NCBI GenBank assembly: GCA_031291075.1
Contig: JARLJS010000095.1
Span: forward strand, 1-64,000
DNA: 64,000 nucleotides
Origin: Nevskia sp.
GTDB lineage: Bacteria; Pseudomonadota; Gammaproteobacteria; Nevskiales; Nevskiaceae
Direction: 5' to 3'
Position numbers and translations under genes: made by a program
In this document: positions 13,957-23,648 of the stretch, piece after piece
Numbering within the stretch: position 1 is the stretch's first letter
Layout: each line of letters starts with the position of its first letter
Notes under the pieces: model-generated
Told to the model about the DNA's origin: nothing
Databases searched by the model: none
What the model saw: only the letters and a program-made list of their open reading frames with translations

Positions 13957-14990
13957 TGCGTCTCAACGTGCTTGGCGGCACCGAGCTGAAAGTCAGCCGC
14001 ATCGGCCTGGGCACCATGACCTGGGGCGAGCAGAACACCGAGGCCGAGGCGCATGCCCAGCTCGACTACGCGGTGGCGCAGGGCGTCAACTTCATCGACG
14101 CCGCCGAGATGTACCCGGTGCCGCCCAAGGCCGACACGCAGGGGCGCACCGAGCAGTACCTGGGCAGCTGGCTGCGTTCGCGCGGCGGCCGCGAGCGGCT
14201 GGTGATCGCCACCAAGGTGATCGGGCCGGGCGAGTTCCCGTGGATCCGCGGCGGGCCGCGGCTGGACCGCAACAGCGTGCTGGCCGCCTGCGACGCCAGC
14301 CTCAGGCGATTGCAGCTCGACGTCATCGACCTGTACCAGGTGCACTGGCCGGCGCGCAGCACCAACTACTTCGGCCAGCTCGGCTATCGCCCCACCTACG
14401 ACCGCGCCGCCACGCCGATCGAAGAGACGCTGGGCGCGCTCGACGAGCTGGTCAAGCGCGGCAAGGTGCGCCACGTCGGCGTGTCCAATGAGACGCCCTG
14501 GGGCGTGGCGGAATACTTCTGCCTGGCGCGGGAGTCTGGCCTGCCGCGCCCGGTGTCGATCCAGAACCCCTACAGCCTGCTCAACCGCAGCTTCGAGATC
14601 GGCCTGGCCGAATATGCGCACCGCGACAAGCTGGGCCTGCTGGCCTACTCGCCGCTGGCCTTCGGCGTGCTCAGCGGCAAGTACCTCGACGGCGCCCGGC
14701 CGCCGGGGGCGCGTATCACACTGTTCGCACGCTTCGGCCGCTACAACGGCGCCCAGGCCGACGCGGCCACCGCCGAGTATGTCGCCCTGGCCCGCAAGCA
14801 CGGACTCGACCCGGCGCAGATGGCGCTGGCGTTCGTGCAGTCGCGGCCGTTCACCGTGTCCACCATCATCGGCGCGACCACGCTCGAGCAGCTGCGCTCG
14901 AACATCGCCTCACACGAGATCAAGCTGCCCGACGAAGTGCTGGCGGGCATCGAGGCGATCCACAAGCGGTATACGATCCCCTGTCCCTAA
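13956..14990 (+). CDS. tas: NADP(H)-dependent aldo-keto reductase, Tas family
   Basis: TIM-barrel aldo-keto reductase close to E. coli Tas, whose physiological substrate is not settled. The strongest signatures are LGTMTWGEQNTEAEAHAQLD, AEMYPVPPKADTQGRTEQYL (catalytic Tyr in AEMY), LYQVHWPAR and VSIQNPYSLLNRSFE. The 344-residue length is normal. The ATG overlaps the end of the upstream palindromic element, so the leader is the inverted-repeat arm and lacks a visible ribosome binding site. Translation may therefore be weak or depend on RNA folding. The 3' end overlaps the convergent subtilase gene by 4 bases. Confidence 0.93.
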   Translation: MRLNVLGGTELKVSRIGLGTMTWGEQNTEAEAHAQLDYAVAQGVNFIDAAEMYPVPPKADTQGRTEQYLGSWLRSRGGRERLVIATKVIGPGEFPWIRGGPRLDRNSVLAACDASLRRLQLDVIDLYQVHWPARSTNYFGQLGYRPTYDRAATPIEETLGALDELVKRGKVRHVGVSNETPWGVAEYFCLARESGLPRPVSIQNPYSLLNRSFEIGLAEYAHRDKLGLLAYSPLAFGVLSGKYLDGARPPGARITLFARFGRYNGAQADAATAEYVALARKHGLDPAQMALAFVQSRPFTVSTIIGATTLEQLRSNIASHEIKLPDEVLAGIEAIHKRYTIPCP

Positions 14991-17257
14991 GCCGGGCGTC
15001 TTTGCACCCGCAGGAGCGGCCGGGCCAGCAACAGCAGGCCCAGCACCAGTAGCACACTCCAGTCGAAGCTGCCGGAGGCGCATAGGCCGCCGTTGCTGCC
15101 ACTGCCGTTGCCGCTGCCGACGTTGCAGGCGGGACCGCTGCTGCCCGATGGCGTGCCGCCGGAACTGCCGCCACCGCTGCTACCACCGCCGCCGCCGCCA
15201 CTGCTGCCCGGCGGGTCGCCGGTCCCGTTGGGGGTGGTGCCCGTGAGCTGGGCCACCGCGGCGTCGGCCTGGATCAGTCCGAAGCCGCTGTCGAAATTGA
15301 CGCCGCCGCGCATGGTGGCAGCGGTGTTCTGCAGCGTCGAATAGATCTGGGCCGGCGTCACCGTCGAGTCGAGCTGCAGCAGCAGCGCCGCCACGCCGGC
15401 CGCGTGCGGAGCCGCGGCGGAGGTGCCGAAGAAGTTGGGATAGGCCGGGACGTTCTGGCACGGACCGATCGAGGACGACGGCAGGGAGCTGAACTGGCCG
15501 AAGAAGGTGGTATTGCCGCCGTCCGGCGCCACGAAGTCCGGCTTCTGCCGCGTCACCGGCACAGCCAGGCGTGTGCCGTTCGTATCGAACAGGATGGGAT
15601 CGCCGCCGGCGGACGAGAACGATTCCAGCGTCGCCGGCGAGGTGCCGCAGCGCGGGGTGACCTGGAAGAAGGCGGCGCCCACCGCCGCCGCGCCGGCCGC
15701 TCCCGGGTGGCCCTGAAGGGTCGGGCTGTTGGTCTGGAACCTGCTGATGGTAGTGCCCAGCCCGTCGTCCTGGACGATGATCTTGATCAGGTTCGGCGCG
15801 CTGCCCGACACCAGGCCTACCACCAGTCCGAGGCCTTGCGCGGCGGTCGGGCCGGAGGCGTCCGCCGGGTTGCCGACCGTCAGGAGCACCAACGGATCGC
15901 CGCCCACCGCGTTGGCGCCGCTGCACGCCTGCAGCACGCCGCTGGCGTCGGTATAGCAGAAGTCGAGGGCGCTGGCGGCTCCCGGACTGCCCGCTGCGCC
16001 GGTGACGAATGGCTGATCCCACTCGAGGATGAAGGTGATGCTCTGGCCGGGCGAGAGGGCGGGCACCGACAGCGGCAGCACCGTGCTCTGGCTGCTGCCG
16101 CTGACGTCGAAGTTCAGCAGCTTTTCGCCGGCGTTGGCGCCCTTGCCGGCGATCACCGGGAACGAAGGCGCCAGGTTCTCGTAGGAATTGCGCCCGTCGT
16201 TGCCGGCGGAGGAGAAATAGGCCACGCCGGCAGCTTCCACCTGGTTGATCGCCTGCGCCAGCAGGCCATCCTGGAACACCGGCTCGTCGGAGTAGCCGAC
16301 GTCGTCGACGATGACCTTGGCGCCGGCCCCGGCCAGGGCCACGATGCCGTTGGCGAAGTCCGCCTCGGTGTTGGCCGCGGTGTGGAACGCCAGGCTGACA
16401 CCAGGGGCGACGTCGTACACGGTCTGCAGCAGGCCGCGCCCTTCGTCGGTCAGCAGCGGCCCCTGCTGGCCGCCGCTGCCGAGGCAGGGGCCTTCTTCCA
16501 GCACCTTCACGCCGGGCGGCAGGGGTGGCAGGTCGCCGGTGGATGCATCGGTCGTGGAAGTAGTGGTGATGCCGTTGGCCGCGTACTGCTTGGCAGGGAT
16601 GCCATGCTGCTGGTAGATCGTGTAGCAGTCGAAGCTATCGGACAACACGCCCACGGTCACGCCGCCGCCGTTCGGGGTCGGGCTGGACAGATTGGTGGAG
16701 GTGCGCACGATGTCGGCGCGCACCGCGTAGTCGCCCTGCGAGGTCACCGCGCCGACGCGCGTGTGCGGACGGGCCGCGTGCATTCCGTGCAGCTCGGCCA
16801 GGGCGGCCGCGTTGCCCACCTGGTCGAGCGGCAGCCAGCCGCCGACGTCGTTGGAGAACACCGAGGGCTCCTGCAGTCCCAGCCCTACCAGCGCCTGCCG
16901 CAAGGCCTGCGGATCGCCCTTGGTCACGGCATCCACCGCAATTTGCGGCACCGCCAGGGGCGGGTTAAGACGCAGCCGCAGGGAGGGGTCGAGGCCGGAC
17001 AGCTGGTTCAGTGCGCCGGCAGGCGGGGCCTGCTGCAACCGCTGCCAGGCTTCGATCAGGCCGCCGTCGAGCTTGGCCAGACCGGTCTGCGTGCGCGCCT
17101 GCGCCGGCAGCGATGATACGCCGAACGCTCGCAGGGGCACGCCGGCGGTGGCCGTCCCTGCCGACGTCTGCAGCGCGGCACCTGCCGGCAACGCCACGGC
17201 TGCCAGGGTCAGCGCGAAGGACGATACAAACCGTGCACAGCTCCTGTTCTCAGGCAA
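14987..17257 (-). CDS. Secreted subtilase-like protein (S8) with Glu at the usual His position and a C-terminal anchor
   Basis: Large exported serine-peptidase-like protein. A TTG start at 17257 is chosen because GGGAG lies 7 bases upstream and the product then begins with a signal peptide (MPENRSCARFVSSFALTLAAVALPAGA). The track start at 17455 adds 66 basic residues. The nucleophile motif GTSAAAPHAAGVAALL (about S613) and the oxyanion AGNDG are normal. The Asp lies in GVLSDSFD (about D207). The usual HGTxVA segment is replaced by DEGRGLLQTVYDVAPG, placing Glu where His is expected. A Gly/Ser linker leads to FDWSVLLVLGLLLLARPLLR and basic residues, the layout of a CTERM-type sorting signal. 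Activity is uncertain. Confidence 0.85.
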   Translation of the reverse strand: MPENRSCARFVSSFALTLAAVALPAGAALQTSAGTATAGVPLRAFGVSSLPAQARTQTGLAKLDGGLIEAWQRLQQAPPAGALNQLSGLDPSLRLRLNPPLAVPQIAVDAVTKGDPQALRQALVGLGLQEPSVFSNDVGGWLPLDQVGNAAALAELHGMHAARPHTRVGAVTSQGDYAVRADIVRTSTNLSSPTPNGGGVTVGVLSDSFDCYTIYQQHGIPAKQYAANGITTTSTTDASTGDLPPLPPGVKVLEEGPCLGSGGQQGPLLTDEGRGLLQTVYDVAPGVSLAFHTAANTEADFANGIVALAGAGAKVIVDDVGYSDEPVFQDGLLAQAINQVEAAGVAYFSSAGNDGRNSYENLAPSFPVIAGKGANAGEKLLNFDVSGSSQSTVLPLSVPALSPGQSITFILEWDQPFVTGAAGSPGAASALDFCYTDASGVLQACSGANAVGGDPLVLLTVGNPADASGPTAAQGLGLVVGLVSGSAPNLIKIIVQDDGLGTTISRFQTNSPTLQGHPGAAGAAAVGAAFFQVTPRCGTSPATLESFSSAGGDPILFDTNGTRLAVPVTRQKPDFVAPDGGNTTFFGQFSSLPSSSIGPCQNVPAYPNFFGTSAAAPHAAGVAALLLQLDSTVTPAQIYSTLQNTAATMRGGVNFDSGFGLIQADAAVAQLTGTTPNGTGDPPGSSGGGGGGSSGGGSSGGTPSGSSGPACNVGSGNGSGSNGGLCASGSFDWSVLLVLGLLLLARPLLRVQRRPA

Positions 17258-17468
17258 GGCTATTCTCCCGTCCAGTTTCCAATTGTCGCCGCTCCCCTGT
17301 CGCGGCCCGCGCCCGCCACGCCGCCCGCCCCGGATCGGCGGCGCGCCGGGGCGAAATTGCACCGGTGGTGTCTGTTTTCGCGCCCCGCGCGTTACGTTAC
17401 GCCATCCCCGCAGCGGAAACCATGACGCCGGTCCCGTTGTCGCTACCGCTCGCATCCTGCGGGCGGAC

Positions 17469-18827
17469 TTACTCCGCTTTCGGCGCCGCCACCGAATACA
17501 GCGGCCATTTGCTCGGCACGCCCTTGAGCTCGTGGATGCCGCAGTCCTTGAAGCGGTAGCGCGAGCCGATCAGCACATCGCGCACCGTGCGCGACACCAG
17601 CACGTCGCCGCCGCGCGCCATGCCCAGCACGCGCGCCCCGATGTGCACCGCGGTGCCGCCGACGCGGCCGTCCTCGCGCAGCTCCAGCTCGCCGATGTGC
17701 AGGCCGGCGCGGATCTTGATCTTGAGCTTCTGGTCCTTCAGCGCGGCGTGGATGGCGTGGGCGCAGTCAATCGCGTTGCCCGGCGTGTCGAACATCGACA
17801 GCGCTCCGTCGCCGGCCGAATCTACCAGGCGGCCGCCGTAATGCTCGATCCGCTCGCGCACGATGTGGTCGTGGCGGTCCAGCAGGTCGCGCCAGGCGGC
17901 ATCGCCGATCTTGGCGGCGAGGCGGGTGGAGTCGACGATGTCGGTGAACAGCACCGTGGCAAGGCGGCGCTCGGTCTGGTTGCCGCGCCGATGCCCGGTG
18001 ACGAACTCCTCCAGCAGGCCCAGCACCTCCTCGCTGTTCTCCCACACCAGGTCGCCGTCTGCTCCCGGCAGCTCCACGTAACGGGCACCGGGGATGTGCT
18101 CGGCGATGTAACGGGTCTGTGCCGCGGTGAACAGCCTGGCGTCATGCCGTCCGATCGCCAGCGCGGGCACGCGGATCGACGGCAGCACGCCGCGGGCGTC
18201 GATGCCCTGGCTTTCCTGCAGGTTCTTCACCACCTCGCGCGGCGACGCCATGGCGCGCTGGAACCTGGCGTACCAGCGCGTCAGGGTCGGGTCGTTCGCC
18301 TTGCTGGGCGCCCACAGTGCCACGAACTCCTCGCTGCCCCATTTCTCCGCGATCAGCTCCAGCAGGCGGGCAGCGGCCTTGGGCGAGTGGCCCTGGGGAT
18401 ACCCCTCCGCCTGCAGCAGGCAGGAGGTGGTGGCGCCGAATACCAGGCCGGAACAGCGCTCGGGATGGCGCTCGACGAATTTCAGGATCAGCGGCCCGGC
18501 GTCGACCACGCCCGCCAGGACCGGGGCGCGGGCGCCGGTGGCTTCCAGTACGGCGAGCAGGTCCTGGATCCAGTGCTCAACGATGGAGCCGCCGTCCTCC
18601 GGCCGGCGGTCGGAGACGCCGGAGCCGCGCCGGTCGAAGCGGATCAGGCGGCAGAACGCCGCCAGGCGGCGGGTGAAGCGCGCCAGCGACGGCTCCTCCT
18701 GTTGCATGTCGACATGGCTCCACAACCCGGAGCTGAACACGAAGTCGGGCCCGTGGCCGCTGACCTGGTAGGCCACACGGTCGTTGCCGACCTTGGTGAA
18801 GCGGGTTTCCGGCTCGTTCAAGAACAA
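17469..18827 (-). CDS. Alpha/beta-hydrolase-like domain fused to class III adenylate/guanylate cyclase
   Basis: Cytoplasmic two-domain signalling protein of 452 residues. Residues about 15-270 have an alpha/beta-hydrolase fold pattern (FDRRGSGVSDRR, PALAIGRHDARL). The nucleophile elbow reads AGVVDAG instead of GxSxG, and the final His segment reads GADGDLVW, so this half is probably a non-catalytic sensor. Residues about 286-450 form a class III cyclase with metal Asp residues in LFTDIVDST (D296) and SAGDG (D340). The Asn of the transition-state motif is replaced by His in GTAVHIGARV, while the Arg is kept. Product and activity therefore need assay. The gene lies about 210 bp upstream of the subtilase gene, same strand. 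Confidence 0.88.
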   Translation of the reverse strand: MFLNEPETRFTKVGNDRVAYQVSGHGPDFVFSSGLWSHVDMQQEEPSLARFTRRLAAFCRLIRFDRRGSGVSDRRPEDGGSIVEHWIQDLLAVLEATGARAPVLAGVVDAGPLILKFVERHPERCSGLVFGATTSCLLQAEGYPQGHSPKAAARLLELIAEKWGSEEFVALWAPSKANDPTLTRWYARFQRAMASPREVVKNLQESQGIDARGVLPSIRVPALAIGRHDARLFTAAQTRYIAEHIPGARYVELPGADGDLVWENSEEVLGLLEEFVTGHRRGNQTERRLATVLFTDIVDSTRLAAKIGDAAWRDLLDRHDHIVRERIEHYGGRLVDSAGDGALSMFDTPGNAIDCAHAIHAALKDQKLKIKIRAGLHIGELELREDGRVGGTAVHIGARVLGMARGGDVLVSRTVRDVLIGSRYRFKDCGIHELKGVPSKWPLYSVAAPKAE

Positions 18828-18947
18828 GTCGCCGTCGGTTTAGTTATGACTCTAATGCTAGCGGTTCCGGGCATCCGCTGTCCCGCTGCCGTATCATTGC
18901 GCCCCGGCGCCGGGCCCGGGTCCGGTGCAAAAAAAACCTCCCGCTTC

Positions 18948-20327
18948 ATGCCGCAGTCACCCTACAGCGCCTTTCGCGCCGAGCTTCGCACCAACCTGGG
19001 CTTGGCGCTGCCCCTGATCGCCGCGCAGCTCGCGGGGGTGGGCATGGGCACCATCGATACCGTGTTCGCCGGCCGGCTCGGTCCCCAGGCCCTGGCCGCG
19101 GTCGCCGTCGGGGTCAACTTCAATGTGATTTTCTTCGTATTTTTCATGGGCTTGTTCATGGCCTGCTCGCCCATCGTGGCGCACATGACGGGCGCCGGCC
19201 GGGCGCCCGGCGAGATCGGCGCCTTCATCGACAAGGCCCGCCGCCTGTCCTGGCTGGTCGGCTTGATCTGGGTGATCCTGGTCAACGTGACGGCCCGGCC
19301 CGCCCTGACGCGGTTGCAGCTCGCGCCGGACACCGCCGCGCTGGCGGTGGAATTCGTGCGCGCCCTCTCCGGCAGCGCTTTCGGCATGTGCCTGTGGTTC
19401 ACCCTGCGCTTCTCGGCCGAAGGCCTGGGTCGCACCGGCCCGATCTTCTACGCCGGCCTCGCCGGCCTGGCCGGCAACGCCTTGCTCGACTGGCTGCTGC
19501 TGTTCGGCCACTTCGGCATGCCGCGGCTGGGCGTGGCCGGCTGCGGCGTCGCCACCACCGTCTCCAGCCTGGCCATGGCCGGCGTGCTGGCGCTGCTGTT
19601 TCGGCGCGACGCCCACCTGCGCCCCTTCGTCAGGGCCGCCGTCCCGGCGCCGCCCGAGGGCCTGCGCGAGATGTTGCGGATCGGTTTGCCGATCGGCCTG
19701 ATCCTGCTGGCCGAGGCCGGCCTGTTCGTGCTGGCGGCGCTGCTGATGGCGCGGTTCGGCGACGCCACCGTGGCCGCCTACCAGATCGCCATCAACTTCG
19801 CCGCGCTGGTGTTCATGATCCCGCTCGGTGTCGGACTGGCCACCACGGTACGGGTGGGCCATGCCGCCGGGGCCGGGGACAGTGCCGCGGTGCGCTACCG
19901 CGGTTTTGTCGGTATGGGGCTGGGGCTCGGCAACGCCGTGTCCAATGCCGCCGTGATGAGCCTCGGCGGCGGTCTGATCGCCGCCCTCTACACTGAGGAT
20001 GCCGGCATCGCCGCCACCGCCTCCCATTTCCTGTTGCTGGCCGCCGCCTTCCAGCTGTTCGACGGCCTGCAGGTGACCGCTAACGGGGCGCTGCGCGGCA
20101 TCAAGGATACCCGGCTGCCGCTGCTCATCACCCTGGTGTCCTACTGGCTGATCGGCCTGCCGGTCGCCTGGTGGCTGGGATTCCACGCCGGCGGCACCGG
20201 CATGGGGCCGGACGGGTTGTGGTGGGGGCTCACCGCCGGCCTCGGTGCGGCCGCGGCCGGCCTGTCGCTGCGGTACGCCCGGCAGACGCGGCGCCTTAGC
20301 GCGATCCGTTCTGAGCTTATCGCTTGA
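18948..20327 (+). CDS. MATE family multidrug efflux transporter
   Basis: Inner-membrane cation-coupled drug exporter of the NorM-like MATE family. The track ORF runs far upstream (16761) through antisense sequence. The real start is taken as the ATG at 18948 (MPQSPYSAFRAELR), giving 459 residues and about 12 membrane helices. Signatures include LPLIAAQLAGVGMGTIDTVFAGRLG in helix 1 and the internal repeat IGLPIGLILLAEAGLF with FVMIPLGVG-like helices. No clear Shine-Dalgarno sequence is seen upstream. The gene diverges from the cyclase fusion and is followed by the peroxiredoxin. Confidence 0.92.
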   Translation: MPQSPYSAFRAELRTNLGLALPLIAAQLAGVGMGTIDTVFAGRLGPQALAAVAVGVNFNVIFFVFFMGLFMACSPIVAHMTGAGRAPGEIGAFIDKARRLSWLVGLIWVILVNVTARPALTRLQLAPDTAALAVEFVRALSGSAFGMCLWFTLRFSAEGLGRTGPIFYAGLAGLAGNALLDWLLLFGHFGMPRLGVAGCGVATTVSSLAMAGVLALLFRRDAHLRPFVRAAVPAPPEGLREMLRIGLPIGLILLAEAGLFVLAALLMARFGDATVAAYQIAINFAALVFMIPLGVGLATTVRVGHAAGAGDSAAVRYRGFVGMGLGLGNAVSNAAVMSLGGGLIAALYTEDAGIAATASHFLLLAAAFQLFDGLQVTANGALRGIKDTRLPLLITLVSYWLIGLPVAWWLGFHAGGTGMGPDGLWWGLTAGLGAAAAGLSLRYARQTRRLSAIRSELIA

Positions 20328-20383: not shown

Positions 20384-21016
20384 ATGGCGCTCCAGCTCGG
20401 CGACACCGCACCCGACTTCGAGGCGGACACCACCCAAGGCAGGATCAGCTTCCATCAGTGGCTCGGCGATTCCTGGGGCGTGCTGTTCTCCCACCCCAAG
20501 GACTACACCCCGGTGTGCACCACCGAACTGGGCTACACCGCCAAGCTCAAGCCCGAGTTCGACAAGCGCAACGTCAAGGTGATCGGGCTGTCGGTGGACC
20601 CGCTGGGTTCGCACGAGGGCTGGTCGCGCGACATCGCGGAAACCCAGGGCCATGCTCTCAATTTCCCGCTCATCGCCGACCCCGACCGCAAGGTGTCCAC
20701 CCTGTACGGCATGATCCATCCCAAGGCCAGCGACACCTTCACCGTGCGCTCGGTGTTCGTCATCGACCCGGCCAGGAAGATCCGCCTCACCATTACCTAC
20801 CCGGCCAGCACCGGGCGCAATTTCGACGAAGTGCTGCGCGTGATCGACTCGCTGCAGCTCACCGACAAGCACAAGGTGGCCACGCCGGTGAACTGGAAGC
20901 AGGGCGAGGATGTGATCATCGTCCCCTCGGTCAAGGACGAGGATGCCCACAAGCTGTTCCCCAAGGGCTGGAAGGCGCTCAAGCCCTATCTGCGCCTGGT
21001 GCCGCAGCCGAAGTAG
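20384..21016 (+). CDS. Peroxiredoxin, 1-Cys (Prx6-type) family
   Basis: Reduces hydrogen peroxide and organic peroxides through a peroxidatic cysteine. The motif HPKDYTPVCTTE (about C45) with a PVCTTE context is typical of the Prx6/1-Cys branch. The 210-residue length and the C-terminal dimerisation region (PVNWKQGEDVIIVPSV, FPKGWKALKPYLR) agree. AGGA is present about 9 bases before the ATG. No second resolving Cys is evident, so a thiol or other reductant from outside would be needed. It lies 56 bp behind the MATE pump. Confidence 0.94.
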   Translation: MALQLGDTAPDFEADTTQGRISFHQWLGDSWGVLFSHPKDYTPVCTTELGYTAKLKPEFDKRNVKVIGLSVDPLGSHEGWSRDIAETQGHALNFPLIADPDRKVSTLYGMIHPKASDTFTVRSVFVIDPARKIRLTITYPASTGRNFDEVLRVIDSLQLTDKHKVATPVNWKQGEDVIIVPSVKDEDAHKLFPKGWKALKPYLRLVPQPK

Positions 21017-21064: not shown

Positions 21065-23512
21065 TCAGACCGCCGCCTGGAGCACCTCGTGTATCTTGGC
21101 GATCAGTTCCTCCCGGCGGTACGGTTTGGTAAGGAGGCGGTTGGCGATCATGACACTGTCGCCCGGCGCGACGAAGGCGTCGGCAAAGCCCGAGGTGAAC
21201 AGGACCTTGAGACCCGGCCTCAGATTGAGCGCCCGGCGCGCCAGCTCGACGCCGTTGAGGCCGCCGGGCATGACGATGTCGGTGAACAGCAGGTCGATCT
21301 CGTCTCGCCGCGCCAGCAGCGCGAGGGCGGCATGGCCGTCGTGCGCCAGGATCGGCACGAAACCGGCGGCGGCAAGCAGCGCCCCGACCGACTGCGCCAG
21401 GGCCTCGTTGTCTTCCACCACCAGGATGCTTTCGTGCCCCGCGGTCGGTGGTTGCGCGGCGTACGGCGTGCGCACCTGGCCGGGCCCTTCCAGCGCGGAA
21501 TGCGGCAGGTACAGCTTCACCGTGGTGCCCGCTCCGACCTCGCTATAGATGCGGATGTGGCCGCCCGACTGCTTGACGAAGCCGAACACCATGCTCAGTC
21601 CCAGCCCGGTGCCCTGGCCGACGGCCTTGGTGGTGAAGAACGGGTCGAACGCCTGGTCGACCACCTCCTGCGTCATGCCGGTACCGCTGTCCGTCACCGC
21701 CACCATCATGTAGCGGCCCGGCGACACGTCGCTGAAGCGCGCGGTGTAGCTGTCGTCCAGCACCACGTTCGCGGTTTGGATCGACAGGTGGCCGCCCTGC
21801 GGCATCGCATCGCGCGCGTTGGTGGCGAGGTTGGTCAGGGCGGTTTCGAACTGCACCGGATCGATCAGCACCGGCCAGGTCTCCGGATCGAGCTTGAGTT
21901 CGATCTCGATATGCGTGCCCAGGGTCCGCCCCAGCAGCTTTGCCATGTTGCGGACCAGGTCGTTGACTTTCAGCAGTTTCGGCTCGAGGCTTTGTTTGCG
22001 CGCGAACGCGAGCATATGGGCGATCAACTCGGCGCCCCGCAGCCCCGCTCCCATCGCCGCGTCACATAGTTCCCAGGCCCTGCCGCCCGGCTGCAGGCCT
22101 TCCTGCAGCAACTCCAGGTTGGAGATGACAATGCCCAGCAGGTTGTTGAAATCGTGCGCCACCCCGCCGGTGAGCTGGCCCATGGTTTCCAGCTTTTGGG
22201 AGTGCCGGAGCTGTTCGGCCAGCGCCTTGCGCTGGGTGATGTCGTCGATCACGAATACGAAACCGCGCGGTTCTCCCTGCGCTCCGAACAGCGGCGCCGA
22301 CGAGACGCTGACCTCCACCGGCTGCCCGTCGTGGCGGCGGTGACGTAGCTCGACCCCGCGCCTGGTCCCGCCACGGCTGGCGAGCGCGATCAGCTCACCG
22401 CGCGGGCGGCCGGCTGATCCGTCCCCTTCCATCACTTCCGCCTGACGCCGGCCGATCGCTTCCGCCGCGTAGCAGCCGTAGATCTGTTCGGCGGCTTTGT
22501 TCCACGATTCGATCACGCCGTCCGGACCGGTAGCGACGATGCCGACCGGGGAGGCTTCGAGCACGCTCGCCAGCGCTTCGTTGCTGCGTCTCAGGGCTTC
22601 GGCCGAACGCCGGCGTTCTTCCGCTATGGCGGCCTGGCGCCGGGCCTCGTTGCGCGCCTCCTCCGCCCTTTTTTCGCCGGTGATGTCGCGCGCGATCTTG
22701 ACGAAGCCGGCCAGGGCGCCGGCTTCGTCGCGGACTGTGTCGATCACGACGTGGGCGAGGAAGCGGCTGCCGTCCTTGCGTACCCGCCAGGCTTGCTTTT
22801 CGAACCGGCCCTGTGCCGTGGCTGCGGCCAGCGCCTTCGCAGGTTCGCCCGCCGCACAATCCTCGTCGGTGAAGAATACCGAATAGTGGCGTCCGACGAT
22901 TTCCTCCGCGCTGTATCCTTTGATGCGCGCCGCGCCGCTGTTCCAGGTGACGACGGTGCCTTTCGCATCCAGCATGTAGATGGCGTAGTCCGTGACGCCG
23001 CTGACCAGCATGCCCAGCTGTCGTTCGCTGTCCGCCAGGGCACGTTCGATCCGACGGCGTTCGCTGACGTCGCGGATCGCGACCAGGGTTTCGACGCCGC
23101 CGGCCTGCGCCATCGGGCTTAAGTTGATCTCGACCGGGATTTCGCGCCCGTCGCGGTGCAGCGCATGGAGTTGCGGCCCGATACCCACCGCGCGCGTGCG
23201 GGGATTGGTCAGAAAATCCCGCCGGTGCGCCAGGTGCACGTTGCGGAACCGCTCCGGCAACAATGCTTCGACCGGGGTTTTGGTCAGGCCGCCGGGCGCG
23301 TAACCGAACAACTCTTCCGCCAGCGCGTTGGCATGCACGATGCGACCGTCCGCCGCCACCAGGAGCATCGCATCGGGGGCGACCGCCATGAAATCGCGGA
23401 TAGTCTGCACAGCCTGCACCGCCTCCCGCATTGCATCCGATGCGGGACTGATAGGGGGTCCGTATCGCTTTGATGTCGCTCTGTTCGTACCATAGATCCT
23501 GACCGGATGCAT
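21065..23512 (-). CDS. Hybrid sensor histidine kinase with three PAS domains and a receiver
   Basis: Probably soluble hybrid kinase. From the ATG at 23512 it is 815 residues: PAS near 36-143, PAS near 166-276, PAS near 311-430, a HisKA box with HDFNN (H about 453), and a HATPase with NARDAM, DSGTGM and [11 protein letters not shown]-terminal receiver follows (VVEDNE, phospho-acceptor in LLFTDIVMP about D745, KP near the end). No membrane helix is seen, so the signal is likely cytosolic. The HATPase N/G boxes look intact. Starts at 23611 or 23431 are possible alternatives. A 20-bp palindrome sits just upstream of the chosen start. No partner response regulator is adjacent; ilvD diverges. Confidence 0.9.
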
Positions 23513-23513
23513 T

Positions 23514-23533
23514 GACGTGACGTCCGTCACGTC
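23514..23533. promoter_or_regulatory. 20-bp palindrome between the histidine kinase and ilvD
   Basis: GACGTGACG and its exact complement CGTCACGTC are separated by TC. The site lies 1 base upstream of the chosen kinase ATG and about 140 bases upstream of ilvD. Its size and symmetry suit a dimeric regulator; which one is unknown. Confidence 0.45.
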
Positions 23534-23591
23534 TTTGCGCGGTTCCCGGCCGCTGCATTGCGCACCGGCCTTGTCGTCCGGCGCGGGCGGT

Positions 23592-23648
23592 TTGGCGCCG
23601 CAGGCGGTCACGCATAAGATATGGGCCCCGCGTTCACGGGGCTTCTTT
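23592..23648 (+). promoter_or_regulatory. Possible ilvD promoter and leader hairpin
   Basis: TTGGCG (23592) and TAAGAT (23615) are 17 bases apart, each matching 4 of 6 consensus bases. Just downstream, GCCCCG and CGGGGC around a 6-base loop (23625-23642) are followed by TTCTTT. This could be a weak terminator-like leader hairpin in front of ilvD. No leader peptide with branched-chain codons was found. Confidence 0.35.

Follow-up and report, generated by a model that had tools for sequence, protein, structure and literature searches.

What does an alpha/beta-hydrolase domain do once it has been joined to a nucleotidyl cyclase and no longer carries the residues of a hydrolase? The question is raised by a gene within a 64,000-nucleotide stretch of a Nevskia sp. 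contig, hereafter the window. An earlier note on its sequence had taken the product for what looks like a small-molecule-gated cyclase with altered chemistry, in which the hydrolase half likely binds rather than cleaves a ligand. The family of LipJ-type fusions offers three sorts: those with both halves intact, those with a dead hydrolase and a kept cyclase, and those with a dead cyclase and kept Ser and His. Comparing the three would bear on the sensor role of the hydrolase domain.

A hydrolase–cyclase fusion of the LipJ kind

17469..18827, minus strand: gene for a fusion of an alpha/beta-hydrolase with a class III cyclase, 452 aa from a TTG start
17988..18794, minus strand: N-terminal alpha/beta-hydrolase-fold domain without nucleophile Ser and His, about residues 12-280 (Pfam; solved-structure alignments)
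17490..17969, minus strand: class III cyclase catalytic domain, about residues 287-446 (Pfam; match to a solved cyclase)

The open reading frame fills 17469-18827 on the minus strand exactly, has no internal stop, and contains a second in-frame TTG at 18821, two codons past the start TTG. In profile searches, the protein matched Pfam Abhydrolase_1 over residues 59-263 (E 3.7e-11) and Pfam Guanylate_cyc over residues 290-440 (E 8.6e-8); with 32.4 bits against a cut-off of 21.9 for PF00211, it falls within the class III nucleotidyl cyclase profile. The closest solved cyclase is Rv1900c (PDB 1ybt/1ybu), with E 1e-44 over the cyclase domain. The best full-length family is NCBIfam NF058673, LipJ, aligned over residues 5-445; the score of 382.9 bits lies below the curated cut-off of 800 and leaves the protein outside the LipJ equivalog, and five other relatives scored 263-436 bits. 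It does belong to the broader LipJ/Rv1900c-like fusions, in which a hydrolase domain is followed by a class III cyclase in one chain that can be aligned end to end.

Relatives and the tree of the family

A scan of the genome collection returned a sole relative, from a Nevskia MAG (L011, 76% identical). Matches were found in 14 of the 18 genomes of the genus, the genome of the window included, one match being a fragment that lies at the end of a contig, and in 27 of the 85 genomes of the order. Full-length relatives at 31-43% identity are carried by plasmids of Bradyrhizobium, Sinorhizobium, Paraburkholderia, Nitrosomonas and others, and further families of the phylum have them too. In Sinorhizobium medicae, a plasmid (L058, 1-2231) carries another cyclase-domain gene ahead of the fusion gene.

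Residue states were read from a family alignment of 49 rows. The protein encoded in the window and 25 relatives, all from its order, lack both Ser and His of the hydrolase and keep both metal-binding Asp residues and the Arg of the cyclase. Ser and His are intact alongside both metal Asps in 11 rows, whereas the metal Asps are lost in 11 further rows with Ser and His present; in one row (L061), Ser and the metal Asps are lost and His is kept. Judged by these residues, some lineages of the fusion family appear to have lost the function of the hydrolase half and others that of the cyclase half. In the tree, a single branch (support 100/100) separates the 26 rows of the order without Ser and His from the rest; the state with kept Ser and a dead cyclase requires three changes. 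The simplest reading, for a tree whose root is not fixed, is that the loss of Ser and His happened once in the order clade. As this clade has a single origin, the co-occurrence of its traits counts as one event and not as repeated evidence. The relatives L042-L053 (families f223 and f227), with hydrolase Ser and His intact and both cyclase metal Asps lost, show the reverse of what is seen in the clade of the window gene.

The cyclase half and its base-reading pair

17940..17942, minus strand: Asp296, first metal-binding Asp (family alignment)
17820..17822, minus strand: Asp336, at the substrate-specifying Lys place (family alignment)
17808..17810, minus strand: Asp340, second metal-binding Asp (family alignment)
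17664..17666, minus strand: Arg388, at the substrate-specifying Asp place (family alignment)
17643..17645, minus strand: His395, at the transition-state Asn place, common to Rv1900c (family alignment; Rv1900c match)
17631..17633, minus strand: Arg399, transition-state Arg, kept (family alignment)

The C-terminal half has both metal Asps and the transition-state Arg of a class III cyclase. The earlier note had seen the metal Asps, and also His395 where Asn is usual, and both observations were borne out; its view of this His as a mark of altered chemistry has to be given up. His stands at the Asn place in 35 of the 37 rows that keep the two metal Asps (the exceptions being Asn in L059 and Thr in L060), and the known cyclase Rv1900c carries it too, in the motif AVHIGARV. 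The comparison of key residues in homologues thus upheld the loss of Ser and His and the kept metal Asps, found nothing distinctive in His395, and brought out the real departure, which the note had missed: the pair Asp336/Arg388.

In the class III scheme, which we take to place the substrate-specifying Lys three positions ahead of the G in GDG and the Asp seven ahead of the Asn, the pair falls on positions 336 and 388; the latter, where the alignment has gaps, was read across the family by counting back from His395. A canonical adenylyl cyclase would have Lys/Asp (or Lys/Thr) with Asn in place of Asp336/Arg388/His395, and the classical guanylyl cyclase pair is Glu/Cys (PMC2576301) rather than Asp/Arg. 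Within the subclade of the window (15 rows), the pair is Asp/Arg in 14 rows and Glu/Arg in one (L062). Its 11 sister rows carry Asp/Ala (5), Asp/Ser (5) or Thr/Gln (1); where Ser/His are intact and the cyclase is live (11 rows), the pair is Lys/Asp (9), Arg/Asp (1) or Ala/Gly (1). No pair of an acidic residue and Arg was found among the readable PF00211 domains sampled from its own genome and from the phylum, a sample that favours high-scoring domains, in which the pair was read by motif and several domains were unreadable. Two cyclases of the same genome with unknown substrate (L005 and L006) have Asp at the substrate Lys place (DFAGDG), and Thr or Ala at the second place; an acid at the Lys place is therefore no proof of GTP use by itself.

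For Bacteroidetes proteins with a Glu-Lys/Arg pair, it was argued that the pair reads guanine, with the basic residue bonding O6, and guanylyl cyclases were predicted (PMC4886424). This published prediction makes GTP use plausible for the Asp336/Arg388 protein as well, and it is our reasoned guess that the protein may use GTP over ATP. An appreciable possibility, which we would nevertheless not put on an even footing, is that it is an ATP-preferring adenylyl cyclase with a pseudo-hydrolase regulatory domain, in which Asp/Arg merely reshapes base binding, much as Asn is tolerated at the Lys place of Rv1900c. That protein has Asn at the Lys place, does without the transition-state Asn, which has been taken as evidence that the Asn is dispensable, and is still a cyclase, purportedly both adenylyl and guanylyl (PMC4886424); many sampled class III domains, moreover, have K/T instead of K/D, which also speaks for ATP preference. 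The change seen here is, however, larger than that in Rv1900c, as the charge is reversed at both places of the pair in every row of the subclade. The fullest form of the GTP reading, a guanylyl cyclase lineage that would read guanine via Asp (or Glu)/Arg, not Glu/Cys, and would be gated by a small molecule in the dead hydrolase pocket, is put forward only tentatively.

The hydrolase half

18495..18512, minus strand: former nucleophile elbow G106-V-V-D-A-G111, with Val108 at the Ser place (family and solved-hydrolase alignments)
18141..18143, minus strand: Asp229, possible acid-residue remnant, GRHD (family and solved-structure alignments)
18054..18056, minus strand: Gly258, at the catalytic-His place (family alignment; 1a7u alignment)

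The catalytic places were located by alignment with the solved hydrolases 2xua, 8v16, 6eb3 and 1a7u and by the family alignment. Where the solved hydrolases have G-x-S-x-G, the elbow reads G-V-V-D-A-G. Val108 and Gly258 agree with the missing nucleophile Ser and the changed His region of the earlier note, and Asp229, perhaps the acid, is one residue off the acid place in register (family and solved-hydrolase alignments). The Ser-His-Asp triad of an active alpha/beta-hydrolase is thus not present and, by residue, classical Ser hydrolysis has almost certainly been lost. The best inference for this half is a role as a ligand-binding sensor. The idea that it binds rather than cleaves fits the absence of Ser and His in every full-length relative found in the order, with both metal Asps kept.

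A triad-less hydrolase fold could instead serve as a dimerisation or docking module that has no ligand, with a cyclase that is constitutive or otherwise regulated, and the faster divergence of this half (about 72% identity to L014, compared with about 85% for the cyclase half) fits such a module. We regard this as rather unlikely; pocket-side motifs, D109-[AS]-G-P-L after the elbow and G-x-D257, are kept in the genus, and a mere scaffold does not obviously need them. It is improbable that the hydrolase half keeps some other, Ser-independent activity via Asp109 or Asp229: the genus conserves Asp109, the residue right after the Ser place, and a weak profile match (E 0.044) leads to haloalkane dehalogenase, an enzyme with an Asp nucleophile, but Asp109 sits one position away from where the nucleophile belongs, and the His, too, is missing.

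Conservation of the gene and its neighbours

18948..20327, plus strand: MATE efflux gene, divergent neighbour of the fusion gene across a 120-bp gap (window reading; flank comparison)
20384..21016, plus strand: 1-Cys peroxiredoxin gene, next after the MATE gene (window reading; flank comparison)

The MATE gene stands beside the fusion gene in all ten other genomes of the genus with flanks read (L066-L075, L066 being the same stretch as L011), and the peroxiredoxin gene lies nearby in seven of them. In other genera (L076-L079), only low-identity frame matches were obtained, confined to the fusion gene itself. The 120-bp gap between the divergent genes (18828-18947), an arrangement kept in the genus, may be a shared promoter region. 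A gene for a subtilase-family (S8) protein (14987-17455) lies directly downstream of the fusion gene on the same strand, and a PAS-rich hybrid histidine kinase with a receiver domain is encoded at 21065-23611. In the genome itself, PF00211 is matched ten times and cNMP-binding domains fifteen times, so that possible cyclic-nucleotide effectors exist, none of them linked to the fusion gene.

Among sampled pairs, dN/dS (Nei-Gojobori) ranged from 0.04 to 0.40 for the hydrolase half and from 0 to 0.24 for the cyclase half, values of which only the order of size counts, since synonymous sites at 70% GC are a rough clock. According to the earlier note, homologues with an intact triad and a full cyclase active site would make the gene merely a decaying copy. 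Relatives with intact Ser and His and a live cyclase do exist elsewhere in the phylum (rhizobial, burkholderial and other), yet decay of an intact LipJ-like enzyme is very improbable, because 26 sequences on one branch all share the loss, their frames are open, dN/dS stays below 0.41 and, within the genus, the neighbouring genes are conserved. The gene is a conserved variant of the LipJ-like fusion, with a predicted pseudo-hydrolase half joined to a cyclase, and not a decaying copy. This form is lineage-specific; the fusion type itself is already known from tuberculosis bacteria.

Proposed working

We consider it probable that the protein is a soluble class III cyclase of the LipJ/Rv1900c fusion kind in which the hydrolase domain has turned into a non-hydrolytic, pseudo-hydrolase regulatory domain; a shift toward GTP through Asp336/Arg388 is the less certain part. 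The cyclase would work as a homodimer, its active sites lying where the two subunits meet. A small molecule would occupy what was once the substrate pocket, and its binding there would alter cyclase output. With less certainty, Asp336/Arg388 would change the choice of base, most likely toward GTP, the Asp pairing with guanine N1-H/N2-H and the Arg with O6, and the product would then be cGMP. For base choice, the Asp/Arg pair thus makes a clear-cut prediction. To our knowledge, few bacterial guanylyl cyclases are known.

Comparison with known systems

Receptors with a hydrolase fold that do not hydrolyse exist, for example plant GID1, likewise a signalling protein with a broken triad; the likeness to GID1 is one of general description. 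The predicted guanylyl cyclases of Bacteroidetes (PMC4886424) share an acidic residue for Lys and a basic one for Asp in the pair; they are other proteins, themselves only predicted, with Glu-Lys/Arg, whereas here Asp (Glu in one row) is combined with Arg, and His stands at the Asn place. The plasmid fusions of Bradyrhizobium, Microvirga, Sinorhizobium, Paraburkholderia and Nitrosomonas are the same fusion, at 38-43% identity over the full length, but have intact Ser and His (GxSEG, DH) and, in most, the pair Lys/Asp. The Mycobacterium tuberculosis protein Rv1900c / LipJ (NF058673; 1ybt, 1ybu) differs in its pair, Asn/Asp instead of Asp/Arg, and the fusion protein reaches 383 bits against the cut-off of 800 for that family; nevertheless, the two have the same domain order and length, a profile match along the full chain, AVHIGARV with His for Asn, the metal Asps and the Arg.
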